A DNA stretch of 64,000 nt from Corynebacterium pseudopelargi (GTDB lineage: Bacteria; Actinomycetota; Actinomycetes; Mycobacteriales; Mycobacteriaceae), in contig NZ_CP033898.1 in NCBI RefSeq assembly GCF_003814005.1, forward strand, positions 1,240,001-1,304,000, written 5' to 3'. Positions within the stretch are counted from its first letter, which is position 1. Each line of letters starts with the position of its first letter. The notes under the pieces were generated by a model that saw only the letters and a list, made by a program, of their open reading frames with translations, was not told the DNA's origin and ran no database searches. The translations under genes were made by a program, and so were the position numbers. This document shows positions 24,130 through 37,141 of this stretch, piece after piece.

Positions 24130-24204
<75 letters not shown>

Positions 24205-24209
24205 TGATA

Positions 24210-24256
24210 ACCGCAGGTCAGAGGGTATTTTACCTTCTGGCCTAGCGGTGTTTTCT
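24210..24256 (+). terminator. Element-borne terminator of tRNA-Pro
   Basis: A long imperfect stem (24210-24228 with 24231-24249; outer ACCGC/GCGGT, inner GGTA/TACC) followed by TTTTCTTGTTTT. It lies inside the element directly after attL and replaces the native terminator now found beyond attR at 34210. Confidence 0.65.
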
Positions 24257-24348
24257 TGTTTTACCTGCCTAAGACACGTTCAGTTTAGCGAATTATCGCT
24301 AATCGTGCGAACACCGACACGGTTCGCACTGCTTAGGGAAGGGCACAC

Positions 24349-25539
24349 ATGACCAGGCAAAGGGCACGAAAAGGGCACAAACGCTCCAGCTTCGGCAGCG
24401 TCCGTGAACTTAAATCGGGTCGGTTCCAAGCACGGTTTACCGACTTCGACGGCTACCGGCGTCAAGCCCCGTTCACGTTTGAGGCAGAACTCGACGCTCT
24501 AGCGTGGCTTGCACAAGCCAAACGCCTCGTTTCTATCGGGGTTTCACCACTCGAAGTAGACAGCAACGAATCCGGGGATCAACTCCCAACAGTCGGTGTT
24601 GCGGTGGTGGAATGGCTCGAAGATCTTGAGATACAACAGCGTCAAGGCCTCGTGCGTCTTTCAACACTCACGACGTACCGAAACATTATTGATACCCGCG
24701 TGTTAAACCACCGGGCGTTGTGCAGTATCCGAATTGACCAGCTCAAACCCCGCCATGTCCTAGCGTGGTGGAACGATATTGCGCTGAAACATCCGGATAC
24801 ACCGGATCGCAACAAACGCGCTTACGGTCGCTTAAAGGCGGTGTTGGCCGTCTACGTTGAACGCGGGGATATACCCGTGAACCCGGTGCAAATTAGAGCT
24901 GCCCGAAACAATCCCCCGAAACAAGATAAGCGTTTAGCTGAAACGGCGGAGCTGCAAGCAATTCTGGACGCGGTTCCAGACAACTACCGGGTAGCAACCT
25001 GCCTATGCCTGTTTCACGGTCTACGGATTGGTGAGGCGTTAGCGCTCCAGCGTAAGCACATTACCCAAGACAACGGACGGCTAACCGTTACGGTTGAGGC
25101 CACGCTATCTCGCGTGCCCGATGGTAACGGCCACGTGTTCATGCAACGCAACCCACCAAAGACCAAAGCGGGCTACCGAACAGTGCCCGTGCTGAAAGAG
25201 TTTCAGTCACTCATACGTAGGGGCGTGGATAAGTACACGGAGCACCCCGAAGATTATGTGACCACCACCAAAAACGGTGCTGTTGTCCTGGATACTTCGT
25301 TTCGCTCCATGTTCCATCGGGCGAAAGATAAAGCCGGGGTGTGCAGCGACATTACTCCCCACTACGGCAGGAATTGGTTAATCACCAGGTTGGCAGAACA
25401 AGGCGCTACACCGAAGGAGATTGGCCGAATACTTGGGCAAACCGACGTGTCCACCATCGTTGGTGTGTACATGAAAGTTCGTGAACATCGTCCGGCTGAA
25501 CTCATGGAAGCTGTAAACGTTGGTCTAGATACGCCATAA
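24349..25539 (+). CDS. Tyrosine-type site-specific integrase
   Basis: 396 residues. An Arm-binding N-terminus (basic, GSVRELKSGRFQARF), a core-binding SAM-like domain (about 80-180), and the catalytic domain with Arg in HGLRIGEAL, HxxR in HYGRNW and the Tyr nucleophile in VGVYMKV. The residue before that, usually GH/W, is GQ (LGQTDVSTI). The ATG at 24349 has AAGGG upstream. Such integrases recombine attP with a tRNA 3' end, here tRNA-Pro, 146 nt away. No excisionase of recognisable type lies next to it; one of the small basic proteins may act as one. Confidence 0.93.
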   Translation: MTRQRARKGHKRSSFGSVRELKSGRFQARFTDFDGYRRQAPFTFEAELDALAWLAQAKRLVSIGVSPLEVDSNESGDQLPTVGVAVVEWLEDLEIQQRQGLVRLSTLTTYRNIIDTRVLNHRALCSIRIDQLKPRHVLAWWNDIALKHPDTPDRNKRAYGRLKAVLAVYVERGDIPVNPVQIRAARNNPPKQDKRLAETAELQAILDAVPDNYRVATCLCLFHGLRIGEALALQRKHITQDNGRLTVTVEATLSRVPDGNGHVFMQRNPPKTKAGYRTVPVLKEFQSLIRRGVDKYTEHPEDYVTTTKNGAVVLDTSFRSMFHRAKDKAGVCSDITPHYGRNWLITRLAEQGATPKEIGRILGQTDVSTIVGVYMKVREHRPAELMEAVNVGLDTP

Positions 25540-25746
25540 ACGCGCTGTAACGGCCTCTCACGACTTAAAACAGCCACGGACACACTTAACCCTTGCTGGA
25601 GACCTTCAAGGCCTTAGAACGGGTGTTCTACAAATCGGCTATCAAAACAGCACCGGAACGGCTGTAGCCCCGGTTCTCCCCTTTGGAACCAACGGAGCTG
25701 CTACGCGCATGGGGCGTATCAGGTCGATCCATTTTCAGCAGGAAAA

Positions 25747-26003
25747 GGGTACACCTGTTTGTGTATCCTTCCCGAGCAACAACAGCCCGTAAATGCAAAA
25801 GGGTACGCAAATTTGTGTACCCTTCACGAACTAAAAAGCCCACGGAAACCGGAGGGTGGAACAAACCAACACACACCGCTATGGCCGGTGCAAACGTTAC
25901 CGACACACAGTTAGATCCGTCGCTGCCACCTTCGCAACCACGTATGCCACGGGTCGGTAAACCTTCGATAGCGTCTAAAGCTGGTACGCAAATTTGTGTA
26001 CTT
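25747..26003. repeat. Three 22-bp palindromic sites
   Basis: Sites at 25747-25768, 25801-25822 and 25982-26003. The middle site is the best: GGGTACGCAA on the left and TTTGTGTACCC on the right. The three share the pattern GGTACnC...TTTGTGTA. Spacing of the first two is 54 bp, close to five helical turns. They may be operators, iterons or a partition site. Confidence 0.6.
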
Positions 26004-26074
26004 CGCAGATCAAAGGGGGTTTTTCTTCTCCCCAACCTGTGACTTCGGAGCCGGTAACGGTCAATCTACGCACG

Positions 26075-26200
26075 TTCCGGCGTGTCGTTGCGCGTGTTCG
26101 TTAAATCCCGGTGTAGCTTGTAGGTGTGTATGTCTACATGCACGTCCTCCTTTACGGGGGGTCAGGAGCAGGGTAATTGGTCTATCCTGCTCTAACTTAA
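26075..26200 (+). ncRNA. Conserved non-coding unit, copy A
   Basis: Begins with TTCCGGCGTGTCGTTGC (26075-26091), followed by CCCGGTGTA, a GTGTGTAT stretch, CCTCCTTT and a GGGGG run, then a hairpin AGCAGG..CCTGCT near 26166-26190. The same order is found at 34341 and 34985. A shared 14-mer CACTGAACGCCTAC also recurs further on (26533 here, 34637 in copy B). Product unknown: small RNA or a cis-acting DNA site. Confidence 0.5.
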
Positions 26201-26217
26201 GGGCACTTTTGTACCCC

Positions 26218-26248
26218 CCTAAACCCCCGCGTCTATCGGGGGTTTAGG
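26218..26248. repeat. 12-bp perfect hairpin
   Basis: CCTAAACCCCCG (26218-26229) and its complement (26237-26248) with a 7-nt loop. It could be a transcription terminator on either strand; the T tracts after it are short. Confidence 0.6.
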
Positions 26249-26608
26249 GCGGTACGCCCGGTCTACACCGGGCATACCCCGTTCAGCACACAATCCACTG
26301 GCTAGGCACCTGGAAACGCTGCCCGTATTCCCTATACGCTGTTTTAAAGCGTTTAAACCTTCCGGGTAGGGTAAACCATAGCCAGCAACGTTTCGTTGCC
26401 TTAGACGGGCTTAGAGAGCGTTATTCCATCACTCCGGGGTCGTGTAAGCCCCGTGCTTGCGGTTCTCAAAACCCCGTTGCTAGACCTGGCATCAACTCGA
26501 TTGATGCCAGCCTCGTCTTCGTCAAGGGTGGGCACTGAACGCCTACCCTTTTCATCTTCACCCAATGTTCGGCTTCGGTAATTACCTTTGCCTTTTGGAA
26601 GCCTCCAA

Positions 26609-26630
26609 GGGTACTCAAGTTTGAGTATCC
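26609..26630. repeat. Fourth 22-bp palindromic site
   Basis: GGGTACTCAA on the left and TTTGAGTATCC on the right, the same architecture as the three sites at 25747-26003. Confidence 0.55.
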
Positions 26631-26844
26631 TCTTTCTTCCCTATTCCATCCACGGTTACACACCACCGTCGATCCCTTGTGCGGATCTCCGGAGCAAATA
26701 GTCTTCCGAACCTTCTCAAAGGGGGCTCCGAAACGGGGCTCCCTTTGCAATAACGCTAGGCGGGTTGATGCCCGTACATGAACGTTCAGGCGGGTTACTG
26801 TTTCGCTTCGGAGGTTGAGCAAACCTTCGGAGCACTATCAATCT

Positions 26845-27258
26845 TCGGCCTTCTTCGGAGGCCGATACACTCCGGGTAGTTGAATACCCCTATACAAGTG
26901 AATGAGTAGATGAACAGGTGAATCTACGAATGAACGACACTAAAAAGCGGAGCTTCGTGGCTCCGCGTTGTTGGTTAAAGTCTATAACCGCTGTAAGGCG
27001 GTTATGTTCAATCCAGTAACTACCTTGTAGCCCCGGCCTCAAAAGCCGGGGCGATACCTAACCACTTCCAACGGTTACGTTCGGTACTTCGTACCTACCG
27101 CAACCTTGAACAACCACAGCAACCAACAAGTAGGTTCCTGTGTTTGTCAGTAGGTCGCCCCCTAAGGCGACCAATACTCAGTGGTTCAATCCTTAGAGCG
27201 CCCCCTAAGGCGCTCATAAGAATTTCACTTCCCGAAGTCGCTAGCCTTACGGGCTAGC
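26845..27258. repeat. Array of at least seven perfect hairpins
   Basis: Stems with short loops at 26845-26865 (7 bp), 26947-26966 (7 bp), 26984-27005 (8 bp), 27030-27052 (8 bp), 27083-27095 (5 bp), 27153-27172 (7 bp), 27196-27215 (7 bp) and 27240-27258 (7 bp). The two at 27153 and 27196 have the identical loop CCCTAA. GTTCAATCC recurs between stems (27006 and 27184). The array ends about 180 bp before the 3' end of the AAA ATPase gene. No protein-coding function is apparent. Confidence 0.65.
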
Positions 27259-27441
27259 TCCAGAGAAAGTTAGTAAGTGGGGATATTGAACCGACAGGTT
27301 CATATAAGGGGGTGGGGTGTGGTAAGTGGCAACGCTGTGACCTGCATAAATGCAACACTCACCACGGCTTCCCCACATCCGAAGTGTGGCAAAGTAAAAA
27401 CACCACTTGACCTGCACAAACACCGTTTTCCGGTGTTTTGG

Positions 27442-28521
27442 CTACCCCACGTTCAAACTAGCTCGTTCAGGGTGTTTTTCTCCGTAGGTGAACGGCTTGC
27501 TCCGTTGCTTCGGGGCGAGTAGTCCGGCTGTTTCGAGTTCTTTCAGGCCTCGCTTTTCCAGCGTTGCTGCCTGTAGCTCCGGTATCTGTTCAGCAACGTA
27601 GTTAGCCACGTCCTTAACAGTCGTGAGCTTGCTTTGCACAGCCAAGGTTGCAATACGTTGGTTGCGGTTCAACGTCTCCGAAGACCGTTGTTGCTTGGGG
27701 GTGCTGGAGTGCTCCCGGAGCAATAAACGCCCTGCTTCGGGATCAAGGTCACACACAATGTTAAGTGGTTCACCGTTGTTGGCTACCGACTTCACCACTC
27801 GCTTAAAGCTGGTAGGCGAATCTCCCGGTTTATCCAACTCAACACGAACGCGGGCGTACTGTGTCGCTGCGCTGTTTCCTTGTGGTCGGTGCGTTTTCGA
27901 TCCGTGGAAGCGACTATCCGAAGAATGATGCACCAACACCACGGCAATACCCCGGCGGGTAAATTCTCCTAGGTACTCGTTCCAAAGCCGATACCATGGC
28001 CGATGTTCGTTTACGTCCTCACCACCGATTACCCCGTGGGCGTGGTCTAGCACCACAACACCGATACCTTCGGCTTCAGCGTTTACGGCTAAGTGATACC
28101 AATACTCCGGTTCCGCCATACGTTCAGCCCGAACACTCAAGGCGCACTCCGGATCAGCCCCGATAACCTCCAATCTTTCCCGGTATTCCTCGATGCCTTG
28201 ATAGTCCGTGGTGATAATCAGCGAACGAACCCCGCTGCTGGTTGGGGTTTGGCCGAGCACTTCCCTACCGCTGTACAACGCTTCGACAAGGTTCGCCACT
28301 AAAAAGGACTTACCCGTTTTCGACTCTCCGTAAACAAGCGTGGTGGTGGTCGCCACCAATCCGGGGATTAACCAAAAGTCACCAACACCGGGGCGTGGTA
28401 CATCGAAAATGGGGCGTAGCCCGTAGCGACTCCGGGCGATATACACCGATCTTGCTACCTCTCCCATGTCTGTAAGCATCACGTTTCCTTCTTCGTCTTC
28501 TGTGTAGTAGTCGTTTTCCAT
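27442..28521 (-). CDS. RepA/DnaB-like AAA ATPase (AAA_25), putative replicative helicase
   Basis: 359 residues from the ATG at 28521, which has AGGAG 6 nt upstream; the longer ORF to 28566 has none. A RecA-type core: Walker A GESKTGKS near residue 80, Walker B VVVLDHA near 172, and a VLVHHSS sensor motif near 212. The C-terminal ~90 residues look like a winged-helix (KLTTVKDVANYVAEQI, RGLKELETAGLL). This architecture is shared by hexameric helicases of plasmids such as RSF1010 RepA and by phage and satellite replication ATPases. It is the best evidence that the element replicates on its own after excision. Confidence 0.82.
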   Translation of the reverse strand: MENDYYTEDEEGNVMLTDMGEVARSVYIARSRYGLRPIFDVPRPGVGDFWLIPGLVATTTTLVYGESKTGKSFLVANLVEALYSGREVLGQTPTSSGVRSLIITTDYQGIEEYRERLEVIGADPECALSVRAERMAEPEYWYHLAVNAEAEGIGVVVLDHAHGVIGGEDVNEHRPWYRLWNEYLGEFTRRGIAVVLVHHSSDSRFHGSKTHRPQGNSAATQYARVRVELDKPGDSPTSFKRVVKSVANNGEPLNIVCDLDPEAGRLLLREHSSTPKQQRSSETLNRNQRIATLAVQSKLTTVKDVANYVAEQIPELQAATLEKRGLKELETAGLLAPKQRSKPFTYGEKHPERASLNVG

Positions 28522-28550
28522 TAATTCTCCTGCCTCCTCGTATGTTTGTT

Positions 28551-28577
28551 CGAACGAATGTAGCACAGCCGTTCGAA
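28551..28577 (-). promoter_or_regulatory. Promoter of the AAA ATPase gene with TTCGAA repeats
   Basis: An extended -10, TGTGC followed by TACATT (28562-28557, minus strand), lies about 36 nt before the ATG. Two GTTCGAA elements (28549 and 28571) flank it, the second inside a GCCGTT-TTCG-AACGGC hairpin, which may be an operator or the end of the upstream transcript. Confidence 0.45.
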
Positions 28578-28609
28578 AACGGCGCTACAAGCCCCTCTCA
28601 GTGGGTGTT

Positions 28610-29275
28610 TCAGTCCGGATAGTCTTCACCCTCGTTACCGCTGGTTAAACCGCTTAAAACGGCTTCTACAGGCTCTCCCCTGTAAGGGGTATCGCTCCAG
28701 GTGCTGTGGCTGTAGTTCAGTAACGCTTCGGGCGGTTGATTGTTCGAACGGTTCTGCTTATGCCATTCGGCTACGGCCACAACAAAGTGCCTCGAGTTCT
28801 TGAACTCGTTAAAGCCCCTGGAGGTTGGCACCAGGTTGCCCAACGTTGTTCCCGGCGTTTCGGGATCACTCAACGGCGTGACGTGATCCAACTGCAACGC
28901 TTCTTGGGTACGGCCTGTGAGTTGTTCAATCACGGCTCCGGTGTAAGCGCACCTACCCGGCTCCAAGCCCTGCTGCCTCCAGTGCTCCAGCAACTCCGGG
29001 GCTGTGAACGCTTCTACCGGCTTACCCCGCTGCTTTGCGTGGTCGCGTGCATACTTGACTTTGCTTCGGAGTGAAGCATCTCCGGAGCGCCACACTTGTT
29101 GCCTGGCCTTCACACAGGCCTTACAGCGACTGTGGATGCCGTGGTAGCCGTGCTTGTCGTTGTGGAACTGTGTCAGCGCCCGAACACGTTTACACCCGGT
29201 GCAACGTCGTTTGCCCTCGACTTCTAGGGCGTCTCGTTCGGTTTTCCATTGTTTCGAGTGGACGCGGTACGCCAT
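28610..29275 (-). CDS. HNH endonuclease-like protein
   Basis: 221 residues. A four-cysteine zinc knuckle at residues 22-49 (CTGC...CKAC) is followed by an HNH core near 150-175: LDHVTPLS, NLVPTSR, FNEFKNSR. The CAYTG segment (about residue 116) belongs to the HNH zinc site. HNH proteins nick or cut DNA; in phages and satellites they act in packaging, homing or nick-joining. The ATG overlaps the stop of the upstream 61-residue gene (TAATG), so the two are coupled. The target is not predictable. Confidence 0.82.
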   Translation of the reverse strand: MAYRVHSKQWKTERDALEVEGKRRCTGCKRVRALTQFHNDKHGYHGIHSRCKACVKARQQVWRSGDASLRSKVKYARDHAKQRGKPVEAFTAPELLEHWRQQGLEPGRCAYTGAVIEQLTGRTQEALQLDHVTPLSDPETPGTTLGNLVPTSRGFNEFKNSRHFVVAVAEWHKQNRSNNQPPEALLNYSHSTWSDTPYRGEPVEAVLSGLTSGNEGEDYPD

Positions 29276-29460
29276 TACCGGCCACCCCCGATAGCTTCAA
29301 TGGCTTTGGTTGCGTTGTCTTCGGAGATAAGTTCAGCCCGGCTTAGTCCGGTGCCTTGGCAAACGTGGTCTACCCATTGGCGCAACATCCGTTGTTGTTG
29401 CCCGTACCGCCGGTTGTACATTCGTTGCTGCTCAACGGTTGCTCCGTTGCGATAGGTCAT
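29275..29460 (-). CDS. Small basic protein, paralog of the 59-residue protein at 31414
   Basis: 61 residues with a strong AGGAGG site. Sequence features: a Tyr/Arg/Gln-rich first helix (RMYNRRYGQQQRMLRQW) and a second helical part ending NATKAIEAIGGGR. The pattern Y..RY..Q.R..QW, then TGL-R-EL and NA..AI.A., is shared with the protein at 31414-31593. The size and charge would suit a DNA-binding accessory such as an excisionase, but no family is recognised. Confidence 0.7.
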   Translation of the reverse strand: MTYRNGATVEQQRMYNRRYGQQQRMLRQWVDHVCQGTGLSRAELISEDNATKAIEAIGGGR

Positions 29461-30040
29461 TGGCTCCTCCTAATGGTTAGGACAATTGGTTAAATAAAAA
29501 AGCCCCGTCTTATAGCCAGGGCGGTGCAGGTTCACAGAACCTATAGCGCCTTTCTTATAACGTGAGGTCAGTAGGGGTTTAGGTCGGCTTCTATCCCGTA
29601 CACGACCAGGCTCCCGCAGTCACGCCAGGTCTTCCGGGTGGGGAGGGGGAACCCCCCCCCTGGGGGTCTGGAAGCACCGGAACGTTGGCGTAACACACCT
29701 CCGATAAGAAACAGGCGCACGTAACCGTGCCACCAACGAACCGGATCCCTTAACCCACGGGGGGAAGCTGTTGTAGCGGGTGCAAGTAACCCGCTGTAGA
29801 TAAACCCAAGTGCAAGCACCCAACCTGCCTACACCCTGCACCCCAGGGCGGGAGGGGGCACCCCTGCCCCCTGTCCCCAGAGGGGTGCCTAGCCCTGCCC
29901 TAGCACCCGTGCATCCGGGTGCCCATCCCAGGCCGGGGCTGTACCCCGGCTCCCTTCCCAACCACTCAGCCGGGTGCCCTCCTACCCGGCTGTACGTATC
30001 CCCACCACCCGTAGGCGGTACATCCCTGGCATACACCTGC
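29461..30040. other. GC-rich non-coding tract with hairpin cluster
   Basis: 580 bp between two minus-strand genes. It begins with a terminator-like AAAAAAGCCCC / AT region near 29500 and has a C-run at 29652-29661. No convincing gene: the 138- and 81-codon ORFs on opposite strands are Pro/Gly-rich shadows of the repeats. The hairpin cluster at 29857-29992 is listed separately. Confidence 0.55.
29857..29992. repeat. Cluster of four GC-rich perfect hairpins
   Basis: Stems at 29857-29889 (GGCACCCCT/AGGGGTGCC), 29903-29922 (GCACCCG/CGGGTGC), 29932-29950 (GCCGGGG/CCCCGGC) and 29967-29992 (CAGCCGGGT/ACCCGGCTG). A further CCTAG/CTAGG stem follows near 30040-30056. Such clusters occur at single-strand or lagging-strand origins and transfer origins. 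Confidence 0.65.
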
Positions 30041-30835
30041 CTAGACGGTGCCTAGGCGCGCATCCACCCGGCGTGCCACATCCCTACGTTCGGTATCTTC
30101 CAGGGCGTTGTAGCCGTCTTCTAGCTGTTCTTTCTTTTCGTTGGCGACCTTTGGTGCCTCAAGTTTGAACGTGATGCCGTTGCGCACCAACGCTGCTAGC
30201 CACGGGTTAATGGCGCGGTAGACGTCCGGAGCGTGGTTGTTCAGCGCTTCTGCACGAACACACAGCAACCCTTCTTCCAGGCTGTTGTAGTCAGCGATTA
30301 GGAACACACGACTCTCCGGCTTGCATCGTTCGTTGTGTGGCAAAAGATCGGCAATGGATTGCAGGGTTTGAATGATCCCAGCAAGTTCGCTCGCTGCCTG
30401 TTTCGCTGCCTGGTACGCCTCGAATTGTTCAGGGGTGAAGTTGGTGAGGTCTCGAGCATCGAACCCTTCAGCGGGTAGTTGCTGGATAGCCTCAACGTAG
30501 CGTGGGGTTACATCCTCCAACCACACCTCCAACTGTTTCAGGTAGTGCTCGAAGTTCAACGCTGCTGCTTCTTTCAGTAGCCCATCCAATTGTTTGAGGT
30601 GATCGGCTACCGCTTGTTCAAACCGGCTTCGCTCCCCCGGCTTGGCTCCGTGGTGTGCGTACCAATCAGTCAAGGCTTTGGTGGACTTGTCTAGGTTGGT
30701 GAAGTCCATCATTGGCTTCTCAGGGGTTTGGAGCAACTGGAGTTCTTCGGCTTTTTGCAGAGCGTCTGCAACGCCTTCGGGGTGTTGTAGACCCGCGTTT
30801 AGTAGCAAGTCAATAGACGGGGTATCGGCATACAT
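30041..30835 (-). CDS. Hypothetical element protein, 264 residues
   Basis: Begins MYADTPSIDLLL with AGGAGG upstream. No family recognised. The protein is Glu/Leu/Ala-rich and mostly helical, with likely coiled-coil stretches at about 60-130 and 145-175; there is no signal peptide or membrane helix. It lies between the hairpin cluster and a 126-residue gene, all on the same strand, so they are probably one operon. A structural or DNA-associated role is possible but not shown. Confidence 0.75.
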   Translation of the reverse strand: MYADTPSIDLLLNAGLQHPEGVADALQKAEELQLLQTPEKPMMDFTNLDKSTKALTDWYAHHGAKPGERSRFEQAVADHLKQLDGLLKEAAALNFEHYLKQLEVWLEDVTPRYVEAIQQLPAEGFDARDLTNFTPEQFEAYQAAKQAASELAGIIQTLQSIADLLPHNERCKPESRVFLIADYNSLEEGLLCVRAEALNNHAPDVYRAINPWLAALVRNGITFKLEAPKVANEKKEQLEDGYNALEDTERRDVARRVDARLGTV

Positions 30836-30918
30836 GTGTAACCTCCTATGGTCGGTTTAGCCACGGTGTTGAACCGCGGTCTTGGGTTTGGTTTAGTTAC
30901 GTCACTGTGACGTTGGTG

Positions 30919-31299
30919 TTAGCGTCCGATGGTGGTCATAACGGACTCGAGTAGGGCATCATGCGGGCGTGGCTTTAGCCCGCTACCGTGGCCTTGTGAT
31001 GGATCAATAGCCGGTTGTGCGCGCTCTCGCTCCTCCAACGCTTCGGCAACTCGTCCGTGGTGTTCATCGGCAAACGCTGCTGCTTCATCCTTGGAGACTC
31101 CCAGATCTAGGGCGGATTGATACGCAACCTTCCATGCTTGGCTTCGGGTTGCTTCGGTTAGCAAGTCCACGGCGGTAGGCCGTGCTCCTAGATGTTCAGA
31201 AAGTGCTGCTCCGGCTGATCCCTTCGGGGTCAAACCGGCGTTGTTTAGGGCGCTCGCTACTTTGTGCAGCACCCCATCTCCGTTAAGCGGTAGGGTCAT
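30919..31299 (-). CDS. Hypothetical element protein, 126 residues
   Basis: Starts at the ATG at 31299 (MTLPLNGDGVLHKV) with AAGGAG upstream; the longer ORF to 31356 has no ribosome site. Ala- and Glu-rich, with helices around KVASALNNAGL and KDEAAAFADEHHGRVAEAL. No recognised domain. The C-terminus (PRPHDALLESVMTTIGR) is basic. Probably in the same operon as its neighbours. Confidence 0.72.
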   Translation of the reverse strand: MTLPLNGDGVLHKVASALNNAGLTPKGSAGAALSEHLGARPTAVDLLTEATRSQAWKVAYQSALDLGVSKDEAAAFADEHHGRVAEALEERERAQPAIDPSQGHGSGLKPRPHDALLESVMTTIGR

Positions 31300-31413
31300 G
31301 TGTTTCTCCTTGACTTGGTTGTGTTTTCCCTGTTGAGTAGCGGATCCGTTCCGCAACCGTTGGCTTATGGGAAGACGGTCGAAAACCCCTGGTCGTGTTA
31401 GCGCGTCCGGGGG

Positions 31414-31593
31414 TTACTTGTTGTCGCGTAAGGCGTCAATAATCGCCCGTGCGTTTGGTTCCGTGGTGAGTTGGCGAACCGTGATGCCTACGGCATCGGC
31501 AATGTCACTAAGCCACTGCCTACGGCGTGCTTGTTCACGTCGGTAGCGTTTGGTGTACTCCGTTTGCATTGCTCTTTGGCGTGGTGTGAGCAT
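31414..31593 (-). CDS. Small basic protein, 59 residues
   Basis: Starts at MLTPRQRAMQ with AGGAGG upstream. Arg/Gln-rich first helix (YTKRYRREQARRRQW) and a second part with TVRQLTTEPNARAIIDAL. It is a diverged paralog of the 61-residue protein at 29275-29460 (same Tyr-Arg, QW and NA..AI positions). It may bind nucleic acid; function unknown. Confidence 0.7.
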   Translation of the reverse strand: MLTPRQRAMQTEYTKRYRREQARRRQWLSDIADAVGITVRQLTTEPNARAIIDALRDNK

Positions 31594-32371
31594 GGAAAAT
31601 GCCTCCTTTCTATCGCTATGTTTTCGGTGATAAAAAATGATCCGCCCCAATGGCGGAAAGTCGGTGTTGCCCGCTTCGTGGGGGCTATGGCTCCGTAGCA
31701 ACGTAAGGACGTATCAGAACAACAACACCGCGCCTCAAGCGCGGTTAATTACTCCGGGTGGTTCAGCTAGAAAACCCAAGCACCGCTACAAACCAACAAC
31801 GGCTCGTAACGGTGCCTGGCAACCATCAGGAGGAGAAAACGGGCGTCGCTAATACCCGCTTCGAGGAGTTACGCGGGTTTACCGCGCGTCTAGTGCTCCG
31901 GTGGAACGAATCCACGCGGGCTAAGTTTGAAAAAAGTCAGCATCACAAACGAAGGAATTACCCTTCATTAGTTAAGTACGTGTAACTTTTCAGTTTTCCG
32001 CCTAAAAAACACCTGTTTGTGACAAAATTAACAATAAGCAAGTGCAGTTGGGCAAAATACCTCTCACTTATTATGTAGGTGTCCAAACTGGATTTTGGAC
32101 CCCTTTTGTCAAGTAAATGAGAGCAATATCACTATAATGAACCCCCGTTTAGGGTGTTTTAGTCGTTCATTGTAAAGCTAAAGGACGTTTACCGGCTACC
32201 GGAACCCTAGGCACGCCCGAATCCAAACACGGTTACACAACTCCGATGCAGCGCTGCTCGAAGCGATGACCGAACCCGCCACTGCTAGGCATAAGGGTGC
32301 TCCATCTCGAAACAGTCCCCTAAAACTCGCTGTAAGCTATTCTCCCGCGTTAGAACGTGTGTTCTATGGTT
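31594..32371. other. Non-coding tract between small gene and HTH gene
   Basis: About 780 bp, AT-rich in its middle (31940-32140). A consensus -10 TATAAT on the plus strand is at 32133-32138, with TTGTCA 21 bp before it (too far for an ideal promoter). The string ACACCTGTTTGTG near 32009 is also in the first palindromic site at 25751. A GAACGTGTGTTCTA-like element near 32352 and GAACGGGTGTTCTA near 25618 are similar. I see no gene. Confidence 0.45.
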
Positions 32372-32986
32372 TTACACCTTTGGATTATTTTCTTCGCTTA
32401 AAACGGCTGTGAGGGCTTCTACTTCTTCGGTGGTGGGCTGTAACCAGAGGGTTTTTCCTTTTTCCGTCCAGTGCAACCCGTTGCGGATCCGAATAAGGTA
32501 ATCACCGTCGCTGTTGGTGCGCGGTGTGAACATAAACCCGCCCGTTGAAGAAACACGCGGTATCGGTGGTTGCCTCGGATCAAAGTCTACGACTTGCTGG
32601 AACACCGTTATTTTTCGGTAGAACGCTGCTAGGCGTTTTCTGGTTGATCCCTGCACCCCGGCTAGCCCTTGCAACCTGTATCGGGCGTGCGCTCGTAGCG
32701 ACTGCAAAATAACGTTGTTGCCGTGCTTTACCTGGTCTACATCCCAGGGTAGGTGTTGGGTTATCTCCCCTGCTTCGGCGGTAAGACCCGCCCGTTTGGC
32801 TAGGTAGTGAATGTGTTGGCGACTTACTCCGAAGGTTCTTGCTATGCCGGATTGGCTGTTACCTTCGGCCAATAATCCGGCTACCAACTCAGGGGTTAAA
32901 CGTGTCTGGTTCACGTTCTTTACTGTATCGGGGGCTTGGGTGTTCTTCGGTAGGTTGTTCCGGTGGCGGTGCCTAAACGAAAACAT
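32372..32986 (-). CDS. HTH-domain regulator of the element
   Basis: 204 residues with GAGGGG upstream. A helix-turn-helix lies at about 30-66 (LTPELVAGLL, GNSQSGIARTFGVSRQHIHYLAKRAGL). The C-terminal half has a conserved block: VVDFDPRQPPIPRVS, TGGFMFTPR and DYLIRIRNGLHWTEKGKTLW. The same block occurs in the protein at 35367-35936, outside the right repeat, with about 40% identity by eye. A transcriptional role is inferred from the HTH; the C-terminal domain is unknown to me. Confidence 0.75.
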   Translation of the reverse strand: MFSFRHRHRNNLPKNTQAPDTVKNVNQTRLTPELVAGLLAEGNSQSGIARTFGVSRQHIHYLAKRAGLTAEAGEITQHLPWDVDQVKHGNNVILQSLRAHARYRLQGLAGVQGSTRKRLAAFYRKITVFQQVVDFDPRQPPIPRVSSTGGFMFTPRTNSDGDYLIRIRNGLHWTEKGKTLWLQPTTEEVEALTAVLSEENNPKV

Positions 32987-33275
32987 AGTTTGCCCCTCGC
33001 TGGATAGCCTGCCCAGCTTGCCTGCCCTTTGAACCGAAAACCGTTGCTATCCCACGACGTTTAGACCCTTCACGCTGGATAGTGCGTGGGGTCTTAGCGC
33101 ATGGCCACTTAGCAAGCGGATCAGGCTTGCACGGCTCCCGCAACCTTCAATCCCAAAGACTCAAGACCGTTTACAGAATCGTTCAGATTGTGGTTGTTGG
33201 CGCTTCACGGCTTGCAACCGTGCGTGGCGACTGGATCGGCGTCAAACCCAGTTTCTTACAGTTTTCCCAATAAAC

Positions 33276-33345
33276 GCCCGAAGTTGGTTTTCGTCTAACC
33301 CTCGTGAGTAACGACGCCCGCGCCACGGTTTTACGCGGGTTGTTT
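33276..33345 (+). ncRNA. Candidate small RNA, copy 1
   Basis: GCCCGAAGTTGG (33276-33287), TCTAaCCC and G.GAG, then a terminator stem CCCGCG/CGCGGG (33317-33339) with a TTGTTT tail. Copy 2 lies 120 bp further. Both are preceded by a GTGGCG...GGATCGG context. Confidence 0.5.
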
Positions 33346-33371
33346 GACACCTACCTTTTCGTGTATCGTTA
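33337..33371 (+). promoter_or_regulatory. Possible promoter for the second small RNA
   Basis: TTGTTT (33340-33345) and TATCGT (33364-33369) are 18 bp apart on the plus strand, directly upstream of copy 2. The -35 overlaps the T tail of the first terminator. Confidence 0.35.
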
Positions 33372-33395
33372 GTGGCGGATCGGTTTTTATTTCCT

Positions 33396-33447
33396 GCCCG
33401 AAGTTGGCCGGTCTAGCCCCTGCGAGCTGTAAGCTACGGGGGCTTTC
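33396..33447 (+). ncRNA. Candidate small RNA, copy 2
   Basis: GCCCGAAGTTGG (33396-33407), TCTAgCCC and G.GAG, followed by a terminator hairpin: AGCCCC (33415-33420) pairs with GGGGCT (33439-33444) around an inner AGCT/AGCT stem, then TTT. Same layout as copy 1. Confidence 0.5.
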
Positions 33448-33488
33448 CTCGTTCAGGTGGAAAATAGACCCGGAGGCCTAGTGCGCTC

Positions 33489-33505
33489 CGGGGACTCGAA
33501 CCCCG
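33489..33505 (-). other. tRNA T-arm-like fragment
   Basis: On the minus strand CGGGG-TTCGAGT-CCCCG is a perfect T-stem and T-loop, followed by GAGCGCA. No matching acceptor 5' strand, D-arm or anticodon arm is found upstream, so it is at best a tRNA remnant or mimic. Confidence 0.4.
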
Positions 33506-33538
33506 GTGTATGCCGTCAGCGCTACCTGCTACTTCAAG

Positions 33539-34033
33539 CTAGGAATTTGCACCGTCTACGGGTGGTTCCGGTTGATCGCTAGCGGGAGCGAACCACCATG
33601 AGAGTGACTCGCCACACGCGGTTGTTGAGTCCTCCCAAACCTTCAGCTTGAAGGGCACAAGGCTGTGGTCTGCAACAAACTTCCACACCACAAGGTAGGC
33701 GGTATCAGTCAAGGGCAGATCTGCATCTGCCATAACAAACAGTTGTCCATCTTCGACGTTGGCGAACAGAGTTCCTGGCACATCGGAGATAATCAGGTCG
33801 TTGTGCATCGGCTGTGTTGGGAGATTAGCCAGCGCGCCTTTGACTCGCTCCAGTTGTTGCGGTGTAGCAAAACCCACTAGCCCCGCTGGCTCCGGAAAAG
33901 CGTTGTGCTTATGTCCGTAGTCTTCGGCCTGTTGCATCGCATCCAATGGATCCCGGCGATTGTTGGTGTGCAGATGGATTACCGCCCCGTTGTTGGCGGT
34001 TACGGTCTTACTTTTCAAGTTGGTTGTGGTCAT
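33539..34033 (-). CDS. Hypothetical element protein, 164 residues
   Basis: Begins MTTTNLKSKTVTANNG with GAGGAGG upstream. No family recognised. Soluble, mildly acidic, with a beta-rich middle (LFANVEDGQLFVMADADLP) and a Trp-containing C-terminal part (SLSWWFAP). It is the gene nearest the right end of the element and the first transcribed from that side. Function unknown. Confidence 0.75.
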   Translation of the reverse strand: MTTTNLKSKTVTANNGAVIHLHTNNRRDPLDAMQQAEDYGHKHNAFPEPAGLVGFATPQQLERVKGALANLPTQPMHNDLIISDVPGTLFANVEDGQLFVMADADLPLTDTAYLVVWKFVADHSLVPFKLKVWEDSTTACGESLSWWFAPASDQPEPPVDGANS

Positions 34034-34162
34034 TCCTGCCTCCTCGACATGTCCACTTCAAGGGCACGGTTATGCCCTAACGTTGGTGTATGGTCATGTC
34101 CAAGGCGGGTAGTGAAAACCCACTAAAAGCGGTATCACTTCGGAGTTCCTTTTGCCCCTCGC

Positions 34163-34203
34163 GGGGGTCAAGGGGTCGCAGGTTCAAATCCTGTCAGTCC
34201 GAC
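34163..34203 (+). repeat. attR: right copy of the 41-bp direct repeat
   Basis: Identical to 24164-24204. Upstream sequence here is unrelated to the tRNA 5' half, so it is not a functional tRNA. Confidence 0.93.
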
Positions 34204-34209
34204 AACCAA

Positions 34210-34252
34210 CCGTGAGGCCGGAGTTTAAAACTTCCGGCCTCACGGCCTTTTT
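34210..34252 (+). terminator. Native tRNA-Pro terminator, displaced
   Basis: A 13-bp perfect stem, CCGTGAGGCCGGA (34210-34222) with its complement (34233-34245), then CCTTTTTCTC. It now sits after attR, 10 kb away from the tRNA it served. Confidence 0.75.
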
Positions 34253-34340
34253 CTCTATTCCACTACTTAAGACTGAGTCACTGCCTTATATGGGCTTTGA
34301 GCGGGAAAACCGACGAAATGAAATTTGCTTCCCCCGAACA

Positions 34341-34459
34341 TCCGGCGTGTCGTTGCCCGCACTAGTCACAGGCCCGCTGTATTCTACAAAACGTATATAC
34401 ACATCAAAGGCCTCCTCCTTTGGGGGTTATGGGCAGGGTAGCTTCGCTACCCTGCCCAT
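34341..34459 (+). ncRNA. Conserved non-coding unit, copy B
   Basis: TCCGGCGTGTCGTTGC at 34341-34356 is preceded, as in copy C, by AATTTGC-TCC. It is followed by GGCC CGCTGTA, TATATACAC, CCTCCTCCTTTGGGGG, and a 14-bp perfect hairpin (34429-34442 with 34446-34459) closed by a 3-nt loop. Confidence 0.55.
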
Positions 34460-34854
34460 GCCTTTCGGGGCACCTTTACATTGGTGCTGCTCCATTGCCA
34501 GAACCCCGGCATGGCCTGTTTTCCCAAAACGCTGTTCTAGGCTCCTCAAACCCTTCGGGCGCTTGAATCGAAGATTCGCTGAGTTTGGTCCCGCTCCGGT
34601 AATCACTATGCGTTGCCGCTCGCCACCAAGGATCGACACTGAACGCCTACTATTTTCGCCATAATCTAGACGGCGGGTTCATCTTTTTCGCCAATGGAGC
34701 CGAGCATCTCGGCCACGTCTCTCGCTACCCAGTGCGGTCCATTGCCCATCTTTACAGCTCACAGATCTGAGTCGTTGATCCTTGAAGCGAATAGCCTCCC
34801 GAACCGTCTTAAAGGAAGCGTCGATTCGGAGGTTGCCCCAACCCTCGGAAGCGA

Positions 34855-34866
34855 TGTCAGTCCGAC
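34855..34866 (+). repeat. Third, partial att copy
   Basis: TGTCAGTCCGAC, identical to the last 12 bp of attL and attR. What follows (CCGTGA.G, GTTTTAAA, GGCC-TTTT-C, TATTCCACT) matches the sequence after attR with decay, so this looks like an older integration boundary. Confidence 0.6.
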
Positions 34867-35366
34867 CACTAGCCGTGAAGGCGCAAGTTTTAAATCTGGC
34901 TCCAAGGCCGTTTTCCATATTCCACTGCCACTGACGGATTTCGGATGAGGGAACACAACTAATTAAAATTTGCCTCCTCCACACTTCCGGCGTGTCGTTG
35001 CAAGCGATGACCCTAAACCCGGTGTAAACTTCAAATCTGTAAACTGGCTGAGTGTGTATTTACACATGTAAATACTCCCTCTTAGGAAATTGAGCCGGGT
35101 AGCTTAATTACCCGGCTCAATTTCTTTTTGGTTCGTGGTACTTCAGCTTTCGATGCGGGATAAACCCAACGTTGCCTTTACCTCTTTTTCATGAACTGCC
35201 CAGGCAGAGCTTCGTTATCTTCTCTGGCCGATCTAAACCTTGTGTGGCGTTGCTTGCAGAACTGAGAATCGTATTGTTTTCCGTGGCAACCAACATCCTT
35301 TTCATGGCTAGAGCGCCTCAGTATGGTCACCGCATTCAAACCCCGGTGTGCCCCCTAGATACCTTC
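34867..35366. other. Relic of a third element (unit C), non-coding part
   Basis: Holds a decayed tRNA terminator, copy C of the conserved unit and its terminator hairpin. No gene with a ribosome site is seen. Confidence 0.55.
34985..35129 (+). ncRNA. Conserved non-coding unit, copy C with terminator
   Basis: TTCCGGCGTGTCGTTGC at 34985-35001, then CCCGGTGTA, a GTATTTAC-ACAT-GTAAATAC hairpin (35056-35075), CTCCCTCTTAGG, and a 16-bp perfect stem (35086-35101 with 35109-35124) followed by TTTTT. The T run after the stem on the plus strand argues that the unit is transcribed left to right and ends here. Confidence 0.55.
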
Positions 35367-35936
35367 TCATTCGAGCAGCTCTTTGGGCATCTTCCAGATC
35401 TTCTTGCCTTCTTCTGTCAACCGAACACCAGGCTTAATCCGGATCATATAATCCTCATCGCTTTCTTGCCGTGGCACATAAGCGAAGCCTCCAGTCCCAG
35501 AAAGACCGGGCATGGGAGGATAGCTAGGGTCGTAGTCGATCACCTGATTAAAGCGAAGTAGCTTTCTATACATCGCGTTGACTTTGTCGCGCGACTTACC
35601 TCGGATCTGCTCCCGACCTCCTAGGCACACTCGGGCATGCAGCCTCATGGCCTGAAAAACGATGTTGTCGTCGTGTTCAGAGGAGATATCTTCCCAAGGT
35701 AGGTTGTCTCGGACGAGCCTAGAGCTAAAAGGCTTATAACCTGCACTCTTTGCCAGAATGTGAACGTATTGCCTGCTCACGTCGTATTCTTTCGCAATCG
35801 CCGTTTGGCTCATGCCTTTGGCTAAAAGCTCCGCCACAATTTCCTTGGTCAGCGCCGGCATACCGCGCCTTTCTCGATAGACAAACAATGCTTCTTCTAG
35901 GTCGATAATCGCCAAGCTAGCGGCTCTGCGTTTCAT
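35367..35936 (-). CDS. HTH-domain regulator, paralog of the element regulator
   Basis: 189 residues from the ATG at 35936 (a TTG at 35954 is a less likely start). HTH at about 32-68 (LTKEIVAELL, GMSQTAIAKEYDVSRQYVHILAKSAGY) and the same C-terminal block as the protein at 32372: VIDYDPSYPPMP, TGGFAYVPR, SDEDYMIRIKPG, LTEEGKKIW. It lies beyond attR, in the decayed elements, and seems intact. It could repress or be repressed by its paralog; no target is known. Confidence 0.72.
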   Translation of the reverse strand: MKRRAASLAIIDLEEALFVYRERRGMPALTKEIVAELLAKGMSQTAIAKEYDVSRQYVHILAKSAGYKPFSSRLVRDNLPWEDISSEHDDNIVFQAMRLHARVCLGGREQIRGKSRDKVNAMYRKLLRFNQVIDYDPSYPPMPGLSGTGGFAYVPRQESDEDYMIRIKPGVRLTEEGKKIWKMPKELLE

Positions 35937-36154
35937 CTCTACCCCAAGAACCAAAGCAATCCCCCTCTATCGGAGTCAGTCTCAGCACTTGGGCCCAGCC
36001 CAATGTGCGCAGAACCAGTGGAAAGTCGGCGGAGCAAATCTGCCGCAGATGGCGTCGAAAAGCTACCTGCTAGCTCATAATTCGGGGCCTCGCTCGCAAC
36101 CGCCCGGGCTTCTTAGTGACGTCAACGTTCCCGACAACTCGAGCTAGGCCACCA

Positions 36155-36193
36155 TTGTCATGAGCCACATCATCCCGTACAGTTTCCTGTACA
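36155..36193 (+). promoter_or_regulatory. yefM-yoeB promoter and operator
   Basis: -35 TTGTCA (36155-36160) and -10 TACAGT (36178-36183), 17-bp spacer. Two TGTACA-type cores, CGTACA (36176-36181) and TGTACA (36188-36193), have centres exactly 12 bp apart, the geometry described for the YefM-YoeB operator of E. coli. Confidence 0.7.
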
Positions 36194-36203
36194 GGAGGCC
36201 GCA

Positions 36204-36458
36204 ATGAAAACAATGAACTACACCGAGTCGCGGGCGAACTACGCCAAAGTCCTCGACGACGTGGTGAATGACCGCGAGGAAACAATCATCACCCGCGCGG
36301 GTCACGAATCAGTCGTTATCGTATCCCTGGAAGAATACGAATCCCTCAAAGAGACCGCCTACCTGCTCCGATCACCAGCCAATGCCCGTCGACTTTTCGA
36401 GTCGATAGACAGACTCGAGGCAAACCGAGGCAGCGAGCACTCTCTCATCGATGATTAG
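36204..36458 (+). CDS. yefM: YefM-family antitoxin
   Basis: 84 residues with AGGAGG 5 nt upstream of the ATG. The PhdYeFM N-terminus (MNYTESRANYAKVLDDVV, IITRAGHESVVIVSLEEYESL) forms the DNA-binding dimer; the C-terminal ~30 residues are the disordered toxin-neutralising part (SPANARRLFESIDRLEANRG). It binds YoeB and, with it, represses its own promoter. The cognate operator is visible upstream. Its stop overlaps the toxin reading frame. Confidence 0.93.
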   Translation: MKTMNYTESRANYAKVLDDVVNDREETIITRAGHESVVIVSLEEYESLKETAYLLRSPANARRLFESIDRLEANRGSEHSLIDD

Positions 36459-36459
36459 C

Positions 36460-36717
36460 ATGCTCTTGGTCTGGGATGAGAACGCTTGGGAAGACTACCT
36501 CTGGTGGCAAACCCAAGACCGCAGAACGTTGAAACGCATCAACCAACTCATCAAGGACATCGACCGCAATGGCAACGAGGGCATCGGGAAACCGGAGCCG
36601 CTCAAGCATAGTCTGGCTGGCTACTGGTCACGGCGCATCACTGATGAACATCGCCTGGTGTACAGGACAATAGACAACGAGATTCGTATTGCATCCTGCC
36701 GCTACCACTACGGCTAA
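36460..36717 (+). CDS. yoeB: YoeB-family ribosome-dependent mRNA endonuclease toxin
   Basis: 85 residues from MLLVWDENAWEDYLWW at 36460, one base after the antitoxin stop; an in-frame ATG at 36451 overlaps the antitoxin by 8 bases and is also possible. The RelE-fold catalytic elements are all present: the conserved E in GKPEPLKHSL, RR in YWSRRITDEHRLVY (Arg and His-Arg), and the C-terminal CRYHYG with the essential His and Tyr. YoeB cleaves mRNA in the ribosomal A site when freed from YefM. Confidence 0.93.
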   Translation: MLLVWDENAWEDYLWWQTQDRRTLKRINQLIKDIDRNGNEGIGKPEPLKHSLAGYWSRRITDEHRLVYRTIDNEIRIASCRYHYG

Positions 36718-36787
36718 GCCCCCCCCCCTGCACCTGACTACTGCCCCCCTCCCCTGCTTGAACCAATCTTTAGTACTAATCCAGCAA

Positions 36788-37141
36788 CTAGATCCAATAA
36801 CGCCGCACCACTGGACCGTTGTTGTTCACGCGGTTTTCCAGCACTCCTCCGCACGCCTCAATGACTCTTATGGATCCAACGTTGTCATCGTCACAGGTCA
36901 CGAGGATCTGTCCATTTTCTGTCGCACCTGGGATGTCCCCCTCTTTCCAGCGCTCACGCGTTCGCTTAATTGCCTGCCGCAAGATTTCTGTGGCACGACC
37001 CTGGCGTCGATATTGAGGAACGACACCATACCCAAGAGGGCGTATTAGTCGTATCTTCGGCGGTGGCCTCAGCGGACGCATCATCGATGGGTCTGGCCCA
37101 TCGACGTCCACATCGTGTCCACCGTGGAACGCGAAGAGCAC
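36788..37141 (-). pseudogene. Truncated GNAT-family acetyltransferase
   Basis: The C-terminal ~85 residues match GNAT proteins of the RimJ/YjcF-like group: GYGVVPQYRRQGRATEIL is the acetyl-CoA-binding motif A, followed by LVTCDDDNVGSIRVIE and GGVLEN. The N-terminal ~90 residues expected for the family (first half of the fold) are replaced by unrelated Pro-rich sequence, and the start overlaps the kdpD relic on the other strand. It is therefore probably a dead fragment. Confidence 0.7.

Follow-up and report, generated by a model that had tools for sequence, protein, structure and literature searches.

Results

A noncoding unit in three copies at one tRNA-Pro gene

Here, we analyze a noncoding unit of 120-145 bases that occurs in three copies, A, B and C, all on the + strand, at a single tRNA gene in a 64,000-nucleotide stretch of the Corynebacterium pseudopelargi genome (contig NZ_CP033898.1, positions 1,240,001 to 1,304,000; hereafter the window). 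Copy A lies within a 10 kb element (element 1, 24205-34203) that is bounded by an exact 41-bp repeat of the tRNA-Pro 3' end, within a gap of 1.9 kb in which no gene was recognised, and copies B and C lie outside this element, just past its right end and beside sites that resemble its attachment (att) sites (Table 1). Each copy begins with the same 16-mer, TCCGGCGTGTCGTTGC, found exactly at 26076-26091, 34341-34356 and 34986-35001 on the + strand; this bears out an earlier note on this DNA, which had reported three conserved copies and placed the starts of the first and last, at 26075 and 34985, one base too early. The whole 2.35 Mb genome contains these three exact matches and one further match with two mismatches. 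When up to three mismatches are allowed, the window holds four matches against 0.90 expected, a number reached by none of 100 shuffles. The unit is small, noncoding and restricted to one clade, and it belongs to a lineage of mobile elements.

All three copies keep their parts in one order: the 16-mer, CCCGSTGTA, a GTATNTMCACAT stretch, a CU-rich stretch and a closing hairpin. The order described in the earlier note therefore stands, while two of the blocks it listed are shared less widely than it claimed: CCCGGTGTA is exact in A and C and replaced by CCCGCTGTA in B, and CCTCCTTT is present in A and B where C reads CTCCCTCTTAG. Its other details hold, in that AAATTTGC-TCC precedes the unit in B and C, CACTGAACGCCTAC is common to A and B (at 26533-26546 and 34637-34650), and the closing hairpin of copy C is a perfect 16-bp stem with a T run. 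Across the three window copies and two further copies in a related genome, G127, the longest invariant run is the 16-mer.

Table 1. Features of the tRNA-Pro locus, in window coordinates (bits, score against the covariance model of the unit)
Feature	Position	Strand	Remark
tRNA-Pro (ggg)	24130..24204	+	attachment site; 3' 41 bases are attL (24164-24204)
Tyrosine integrase of element 1	24349..25539	+	
Copy A	26076..26196	+	inside element 1, 0.5 kb behind integrase gene; model match 26076-26203, 105.5 bits
Copy A closing hairpin	26166-26192		without T run
Long noncoding block of element 1	26076..26837	+	starts with copy A; collinear with B block; 255 extra bases in A
Origin-like site	27303..27425	+	ATATAAGGGGG, then two TGACCTGCAYAAA cores; beside AAA 3' end
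AAA_25 ATPase	27442..28566	-	convergent to the integrase gene (int)
Endonuclease VII-like gene	28610..29275	-	
rep1, phrog_357 transcriptional repressor of element 1	32372..32986	-	
attR of element 1	34163..34203	+	41 of 41 bases identical to attL
Terminator-like hairpin behind tRNA 3' end	34210..34245	+	precedes copy B
Copy B	34341..34468	+	137 bp behind attR of element 1; model match 135.6 bits
Copy B closing hairpin	34429-34459		without T run
Long noncoding block	34341..34854	+	starts with copy B, ends at third att-like site; putative older-element remnant
Third att-like site, TGTCAGTCCGAC	34855..34866	+	followed by degenerate copy of tRNA terminator region, then copy C
Copy C	34986..35129	+	behind third att-like site; model match 121.7 bits; fold z -6.1
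Copy C closing hairpin	35086-35124		with T run; intrinsic terminator
rep2, phrog_357 repressor beside copy C	35367..35954	-	relatives annotated as phage immunity repressors

Copies B and C in a genome that lacks element 1

Genome G127 has neither a match to the AAA protein nor element 1, and in it the tRNA-Pro gene runs directly into copies B and C and rep2. Thus, neither B nor C belongs to element 1. The island in which they lie spans 24205-37037; the part shared by the two genomes is about 95% identical, against 80-90% in the flanking DNA, and flanking similarity to G127 resumes at window position 37038. Within the island, 34192-34356 aligns with 34855-35001 at 69%. The arrangement in G127, the att-like sites, the homology of the A and B regions and the presence of rep2 together suggest that B and C were present before element 1 and that movement of the island is more recent than the split of the two species. 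Copies B and C would then be remnants of older elements of the same family.

The longer A and B blocks do not appear to encode protein

Copies A and B each stand at the start of a longer noncoding block, and the two blocks are collinear: 285 of 507 aligned columns (56%) are identical, with 255 extra bases in A and 6 in B, and on the B side the alignment ends at the third att-like site. Identical runs of nine or more bases are confined to the 16-mer and CACTGAACGCCTAC, and copy C has only the unit in common with A and B. Both regions hold open reading frames (ORFs) in the mechanical sense. The earlier note had argued from the conservation of order without conservation of frame that the unit is not a protein, and this is supported by a 1-base gap in copy A relative to B and C, before CCCGGTGTA, by translated A-B matches of at most 51 residues that are scattered over several frames and both strands, and by a 170-codon frame over copy B that shrinks to 74 codons in G127.

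The unit is confined to two genomes of the genus

We compared 242 genomes of the genus, the window genome included. The exact 16-mer occurs in two of them, the window genome (three copies) and G127 (two); with up to one mismatch it is found in 39, scattered and mostly once each. A host gene carried behind every tRNA-Pro was considered and ruled out by this two-genome distribution. Three other elements at tRNA-Pro(ggg), at loci L231, L232 and L233, give no match to a covariance model of the unit at E <=10. The search of corynebacterial genomes with such a model that the earlier note had proposed yields strong matches in the window genome and G127, and under stricter filters 15 of the 242 genomes have a match at E <=1; the best outside these two genomes reaches 27.6 bits, and the units of the window, when read on the wrong strand, still give 18-32 bits. 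We had considered a wider family on the basis of these weaker matches, and read them instead as lone hairpins that score no better than the wrong strand. Likewise, a DNA search with 34205-34480 finds 86 of the 242 genomes at E <=1, strong in the window genome and G127 only, with the next genome at E 0.0046.

In larger collections, the exact 16-mer is present in 40 stretches of viral contigs and at least 118 stretches of genome contigs, with about 120 expected by chance in 257 billion bases; the titles of the listed genome-contig matches include no Corynebacterium, in a collection from which records very near this genome may be excluded. A longer pattern of the unit has no match in the viral contigs. 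When the whole region is compared with phage and plasmid DNA, the listed matches fall at its tRNA and att parts, and the two finer pairings searched, the A gap against phages and the segment with B and C against plasmids, give none. Neither region matches a family of Rfam release 15 at the gathering cut-off; at E <=5 there are ten matches, all below the gathering score, to eight microRNA models, Giardia RNase MRP and a Haemophilus small RNA. From these sequence comparisons, the unit appears to have no detectable relative outside the window genome and G127, and we found no description of the unit or its element family in the literature searched, of which coverage was partial.

Folding and covariation of the unit

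Covariation was tested in the five copies from the two genomes (three in the window genome, two in G127). Two-sided changes that preserve pairing occur in 4 of the 13 pairs of the closing hairpin, and the common fold of this hairpin is matched by none of 300 column shuffles on either strand. For the unit as a whole, the percentage of paired bases is reached by none of 500 letter shuffles and the covariation score by 6 of 500. With the closing hairpin removed, the common fold of copies A, B and C is reached by 9 of 300 shuffles on the + strand and 141 of 300 on the - strand, and that of all five copies by 16 and 186 of 300. Because a weak common fold outside the closing hairpin is seen on the + strand only, we consider an RNA of the + strand to have modest support. 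As individual sequences, A and C form the better fold on the + strand, and copy C folds far below its shuffles (z -6.1).

On either strand, the complete A/B alignment is more stable than its shuffles (0 of 40 on each; 0 of 60 on each when limited to shared columns). Long-range helices of the A/B block proposed by RNAalifold were examined and set aside as unsupported, the signal being gone once the unit was removed. By eye, TAAAAT precedes copy C, and no such hexamer precedes copy A.

A family of tRNA-linked elements with a conserved origin-like site

Using the AAA protein as query, we found eight further loci (L231-L238), spread over 7 of the remaining 241 genomes of the genus. At every one of the eight, an integrase (46-52% identity) and an endonuclease VII-like protein are matched, a tRNA gene lies beside the integrase, and 22-50 bases of the tRNA 3' end recur on the far side with 95-100% identity; these repeats define elements of 5.7-11.8 kb. 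Together with element 1 they form a family, characterized by int, AAA_25 and endonuclease VII-like genes, that is present in 8 of the 242 genomes. The order tRNA, int, gap, AAA, endonuclease VII is kept in six of the eight relatives; in L232 the endonuclease gene lies between, and L237 carries what by eye appear to be insertion sequences (IS). Some relatives also encode an apparent serine recombinase (again by eye) or other cargo. The AAA protein has no match among phages or plasmids, and as a query for related loci in viral contigs it finds none.

The gaps between int and AAA were compared in the window and six relatives, whose stretches were cut by eye and each include about 50-385 bases of the AAA gene end. 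All seven are hairpin-rich on both strands, with mean z of -1.45 to -3.55 (+) and -1.83 to -4.16 (-), compared with -0.88 to 0.28 for four coding control stretches and -0.95/-1.48 for one intergenic stretch; the B segment gives -1.50/-1.52 and the C segment -1.49/-1.17. The seven gaps show no consistent strand asymmetry of hairpins, and TTCG is commoner than CGAA on the + strand in four of them.

The most conserved stretch among the gaps is the site at 27303-27425, which combines a TATAAGGGG-like stretch with one or two cores of the form TGACCWG, each flanked by inverted arms that differ between elements. The TATAAGGGG-like stretch occurs in six of the seven gaps, and a CTGTGACCTGCATAAA-like core occurs in all seven and in L232 and was not found in L237, so that the core is found in seven of the eight related elements (L231-L236 and L238). 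Inverted arms around 7 of 11 cores tested are reached at <=0.06 in shuffles; for the window's own core the value is 0.35, and the second window core had too little flank. Nineteen viral stretches contain CTGTGACCTGCATAAA, and none of them encodes any of 11 island proteins at E 1e-3. We read this site as the likely origin of the element, and the AAA_25 ATPase is likely its replication protein. The site is better conserved across the related elements than the unit is.

Comparison with cluster A phage origins and other known systems

Of the systems compared, the RNA-based origin of cluster A mycobacteriophages is the nearest in kind; Wetzel 2020 (PMC7157519) describes it as about 600 bp long, without a shared reading frame, 41-71% identical and producing a noncoding RNA. 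Like the origins of the cluster A phages that lack RepA (Alma, RedRock, Gladiator, LadyBird and Et2Brutus), the A and B blocks are noncoding, of comparable length and fast-evolving, with no common ORF; repressors of one family accompany both; and a block of 10-12 bases is common to the phage regions and the unit 16-mer. Relatives of rep2 are present in 1075 phage records, and among the 25 listed the best is 37% identical (Rhodococcus phage CosmicSans) and most are annotated as immunity or transcriptional repressors. We take the family of rep1 and rep2 to be that of the cluster A immunity repressors.

The shared block is CGACACGCCG. Of 17 stretches that precede parA in parABS phages and have no annotated repA, 16 contain it, and the unit 16-mer holds its complement as the 10-mer CGGCGTGTCG. 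The match is reached by 76 of 6000 random 16-mers from the window and by 16 of 772 with equal GC; when all 16-mers of these regions are ranked by the same match, the six best of 1886 from the A gap and the single best of 1146 from the B/C segment overlap that of the unit. Since 1-2% of random 16-mers match as well, we treat the resemblance as a lead only. A near match to the block precedes parA in the RepA phage Gail as well, Alma has a second copy further toward parA, and a second, weaker match of copy B to a phage origin lies in the opposite relative orientation. In 18 strand-wise comparisons, both strands of three blocks against three phage origins never scored above the best of 60 shuffles. 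Unlike the phage origins, moreover, the unit is accompanied by no parABS gene recognised among the scanned proteins and does not align beyond the block. Element 1 carries an AAA_25 gene as well as an origin-like site at another place, and if the unit gives an RNA of the + strand, the block would lie on the other strand. As an observation on the phages themselves, CGACACGCCG is followed by GTTAC upstream of parA in 16 of the 17 parABS phages of Mycobacterium and Gordonia (L299-L315), even where the rest of the region aligns poorly.

Element 1 also resembles phage-inducible chromosomal islands and phage satellites (PMC6092414) in being small and att-flanked with an integrase, a repressor, a replication gene and an origin-like site, although replication by AAA_25 from that site is a prediction. 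A further likeness is that no capsid gene was recognised among eight element-1 proteins scanned. It differs from such satellites in its repressor, which belongs to another phage family, in an AAA gene convergent to int, and in having no known helper phage; nor was a terminase recognised among nine proteins scanned with Pfam and PHROGs, a scan that covered part of the ORFs. The unit is like the small RNAs of Corynebacterium glutamicum (PMC4046766) in its size, intergenic position and, for copy C, its intrinsic terminator; it differs from them in lying on a mobile element and in its two-genome distribution. The closing hairpin of copy C is a textbook intrinsic terminator. Unlike a terminator, the conserved part starts 90-100 bases upstream, and hairpins A and B have no T run. 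As for an IS end, no transposase was found among nine proteins scanned, in an analysis that did not include a library of IS ends, and the neighbors of B and C are att-like sites.

Discussion

The reading that we favor, tentatively and with a little less than even confidence, is that a structured noncoding RNA of the + strand, carried by a lineage of mobile elements integrated at tRNA-Pro, has the unit as its conserved 5' domain. In copy A, in the present element, and copy B, in a presumed remnant, the unit would start a longer noncoding block of about 510-760 bases, and in copy C, in a second remnant, only the unit domain would be left, ending in its own terminator. We favor a structured RNA because the 16-mer is exact in three copies even though the A and B blocks are so divergent, and because the closing hairpin covaries, the + strand has a common fold, and copy C folds strongly and ends in a terminator. 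Further points in favor are that B and C follow att-like sites and copies of the terminator, that both are present in a genome lacking element 1, and that rep2, a relative of immunity repressors, follows C. We propose that such an RNA would control element maintenance or incoming relatives, since the apparent relics keep the unit and, beside C, a phage-type repressor. A bolder form of the idea, in which a new class of large element-borne RNAs of actinobacterial integrative elements has the unit as its trans-acting domain and the relics B and C with rep2 provide immunity to (incompatibility with) incoming elements at the same tRNA site, strikes us as quite improbable.

Several results weigh against a structured RNA. 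The closing hairpins of A and B lack a T run and are not called terminator-like; copy B and its G127 counterpart fold slightly better on the - strand; a single sigma-70 consensus scan found no promoter-like site in either region; and the A/B block downstream of the unit has no common fold (reached by 9 of 60 + and 17 of 60 - shuffles). Although the closing hairpin covaries across the five copies, as the earlier note would have predicted, the count for the whole unit, five pairs with two-sided changes, is reached by 116 of 500 letter shuffles. Since the window and G127 genomes diverged, 9 of 272 positions in the units have changed, as have 94 of 1644 elsewhere in the B/C segment (p 0.11), so that constraint on the units over this time is not demonstrated. 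The gaps of the six relatives match the 16-mer at 10-11 of 16 letters at best; on the + strand 2.9% of 16-mers drawn at random from the window reach this sum, and with both strands counted 17% do. Of the possibilities raised in the earlier note, an RNA is weakly favored by the hairpin, the + strand fold and the terminator of C and disfavored by the negative promoter scan and the folding of B. An antisense RNA to island genes was set aside: the unit bodies (without the closing hairpin) form no strong duplex at 11 island and 4 host control start regions, the lowest energy being at the YefM-like antitoxin start (uncorrected z of -1.4, -2.8 and -1.4 for A, B and C) and the next-lowest z of -2.5 and -2.3 coming from single copies, scores too weak to name a target.

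A rival reading is a cis-acting DNA site, for protein binding or for replication or transfer, with the 16-mer as recognition core and the hairpins as DNA palindromes of the hairpin-rich int-AAA region. That all seven gap stretches are hairpin-rich on both strands alike, that hairpins A and B lack T runs, that the 16-mer is the longest invariant run, and that its 10-mer equals the block of the phage regions all speak for such a site, while the + strand preference of the common fold, the ease with which random 16-mers equal the phage match, and the location of the family's origin-like site elsewhere, in the best conserved stretch of the gaps, speak against it; we regard it as unlikely, though a serious competitor. 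We also consider it unlikely that the unit is residual homology without present function, B and C being decayed left ends of older tandem elements whose shared blocks were left by drift or gene conversion. The high identity of the island between the two genomes relative to its flanks, which suggests recent movement, the lack of significantly greater conservation in the units than in their neighbors, and the apparent frameshift near the N-terminus of rep2 in G127 speak for this reading; 16 identical bases across three copies that otherwise differ widely, and hairpin pairs kept through two-sided changes, speak against it. Finally, an RNA-based replication origin like that of the cluster A phages without RepA would account for the kind of region (PMC7157519), the short shared block, and island repressors of the phage immunity family. 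We think this very improbable, given that no comparison with the phage origins rises above shuffles, that the block need not belong to the origin RNA (as Gail and the second Alma copy indicate), that the weaker match of copy B is in the opposite relative orientation, and that element 1 has its own AAA gene and origin-like site. As to a match with a known origin, which the earlier note had named as grounds for refutation, none was found apart from the short phage block, which fails as homology.

If the unit is transcribed, as we tentatively propose, it would be an RNA of a family of small integrative elements for which we found no description, and its survival in two apparent relics would offer a clean test of whether dead elements leave RNA-based immunity behind. 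If it is not transcribed, the locus is a good example of the accretion of elements at a tRNA gene. The element family may prove more interesting than the unit, as its hairpin-rich gap and conserved origin-like site provide a concrete object for the study of replication and exclusion of satellite-sized elements in the genus.

Additional features of the island

A palindrome like GGTACGCAAATTTGTGTACC is present at four places around copy A (25748, 25802, 25983 and 26610); with up to three mismatches there are 7 strand matches against 0.08 expected, and these palindromes are possible operators. The loop of the terminator-like hairpin at 34210-34245 is inverted between the window genome and G127 (GAGTTTAAAACTTC vs GAAGTTTTAAACTC). 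The rep2 gene matches G127 locus L202 in two frames, its N-terminal part there appearing frameshifted. Near the right end of the island, at 36204-36717, lies a YefM/YoeB-like toxin-antitoxin pair, named by eye, in a stretch that is common to G127 at 95.7%.

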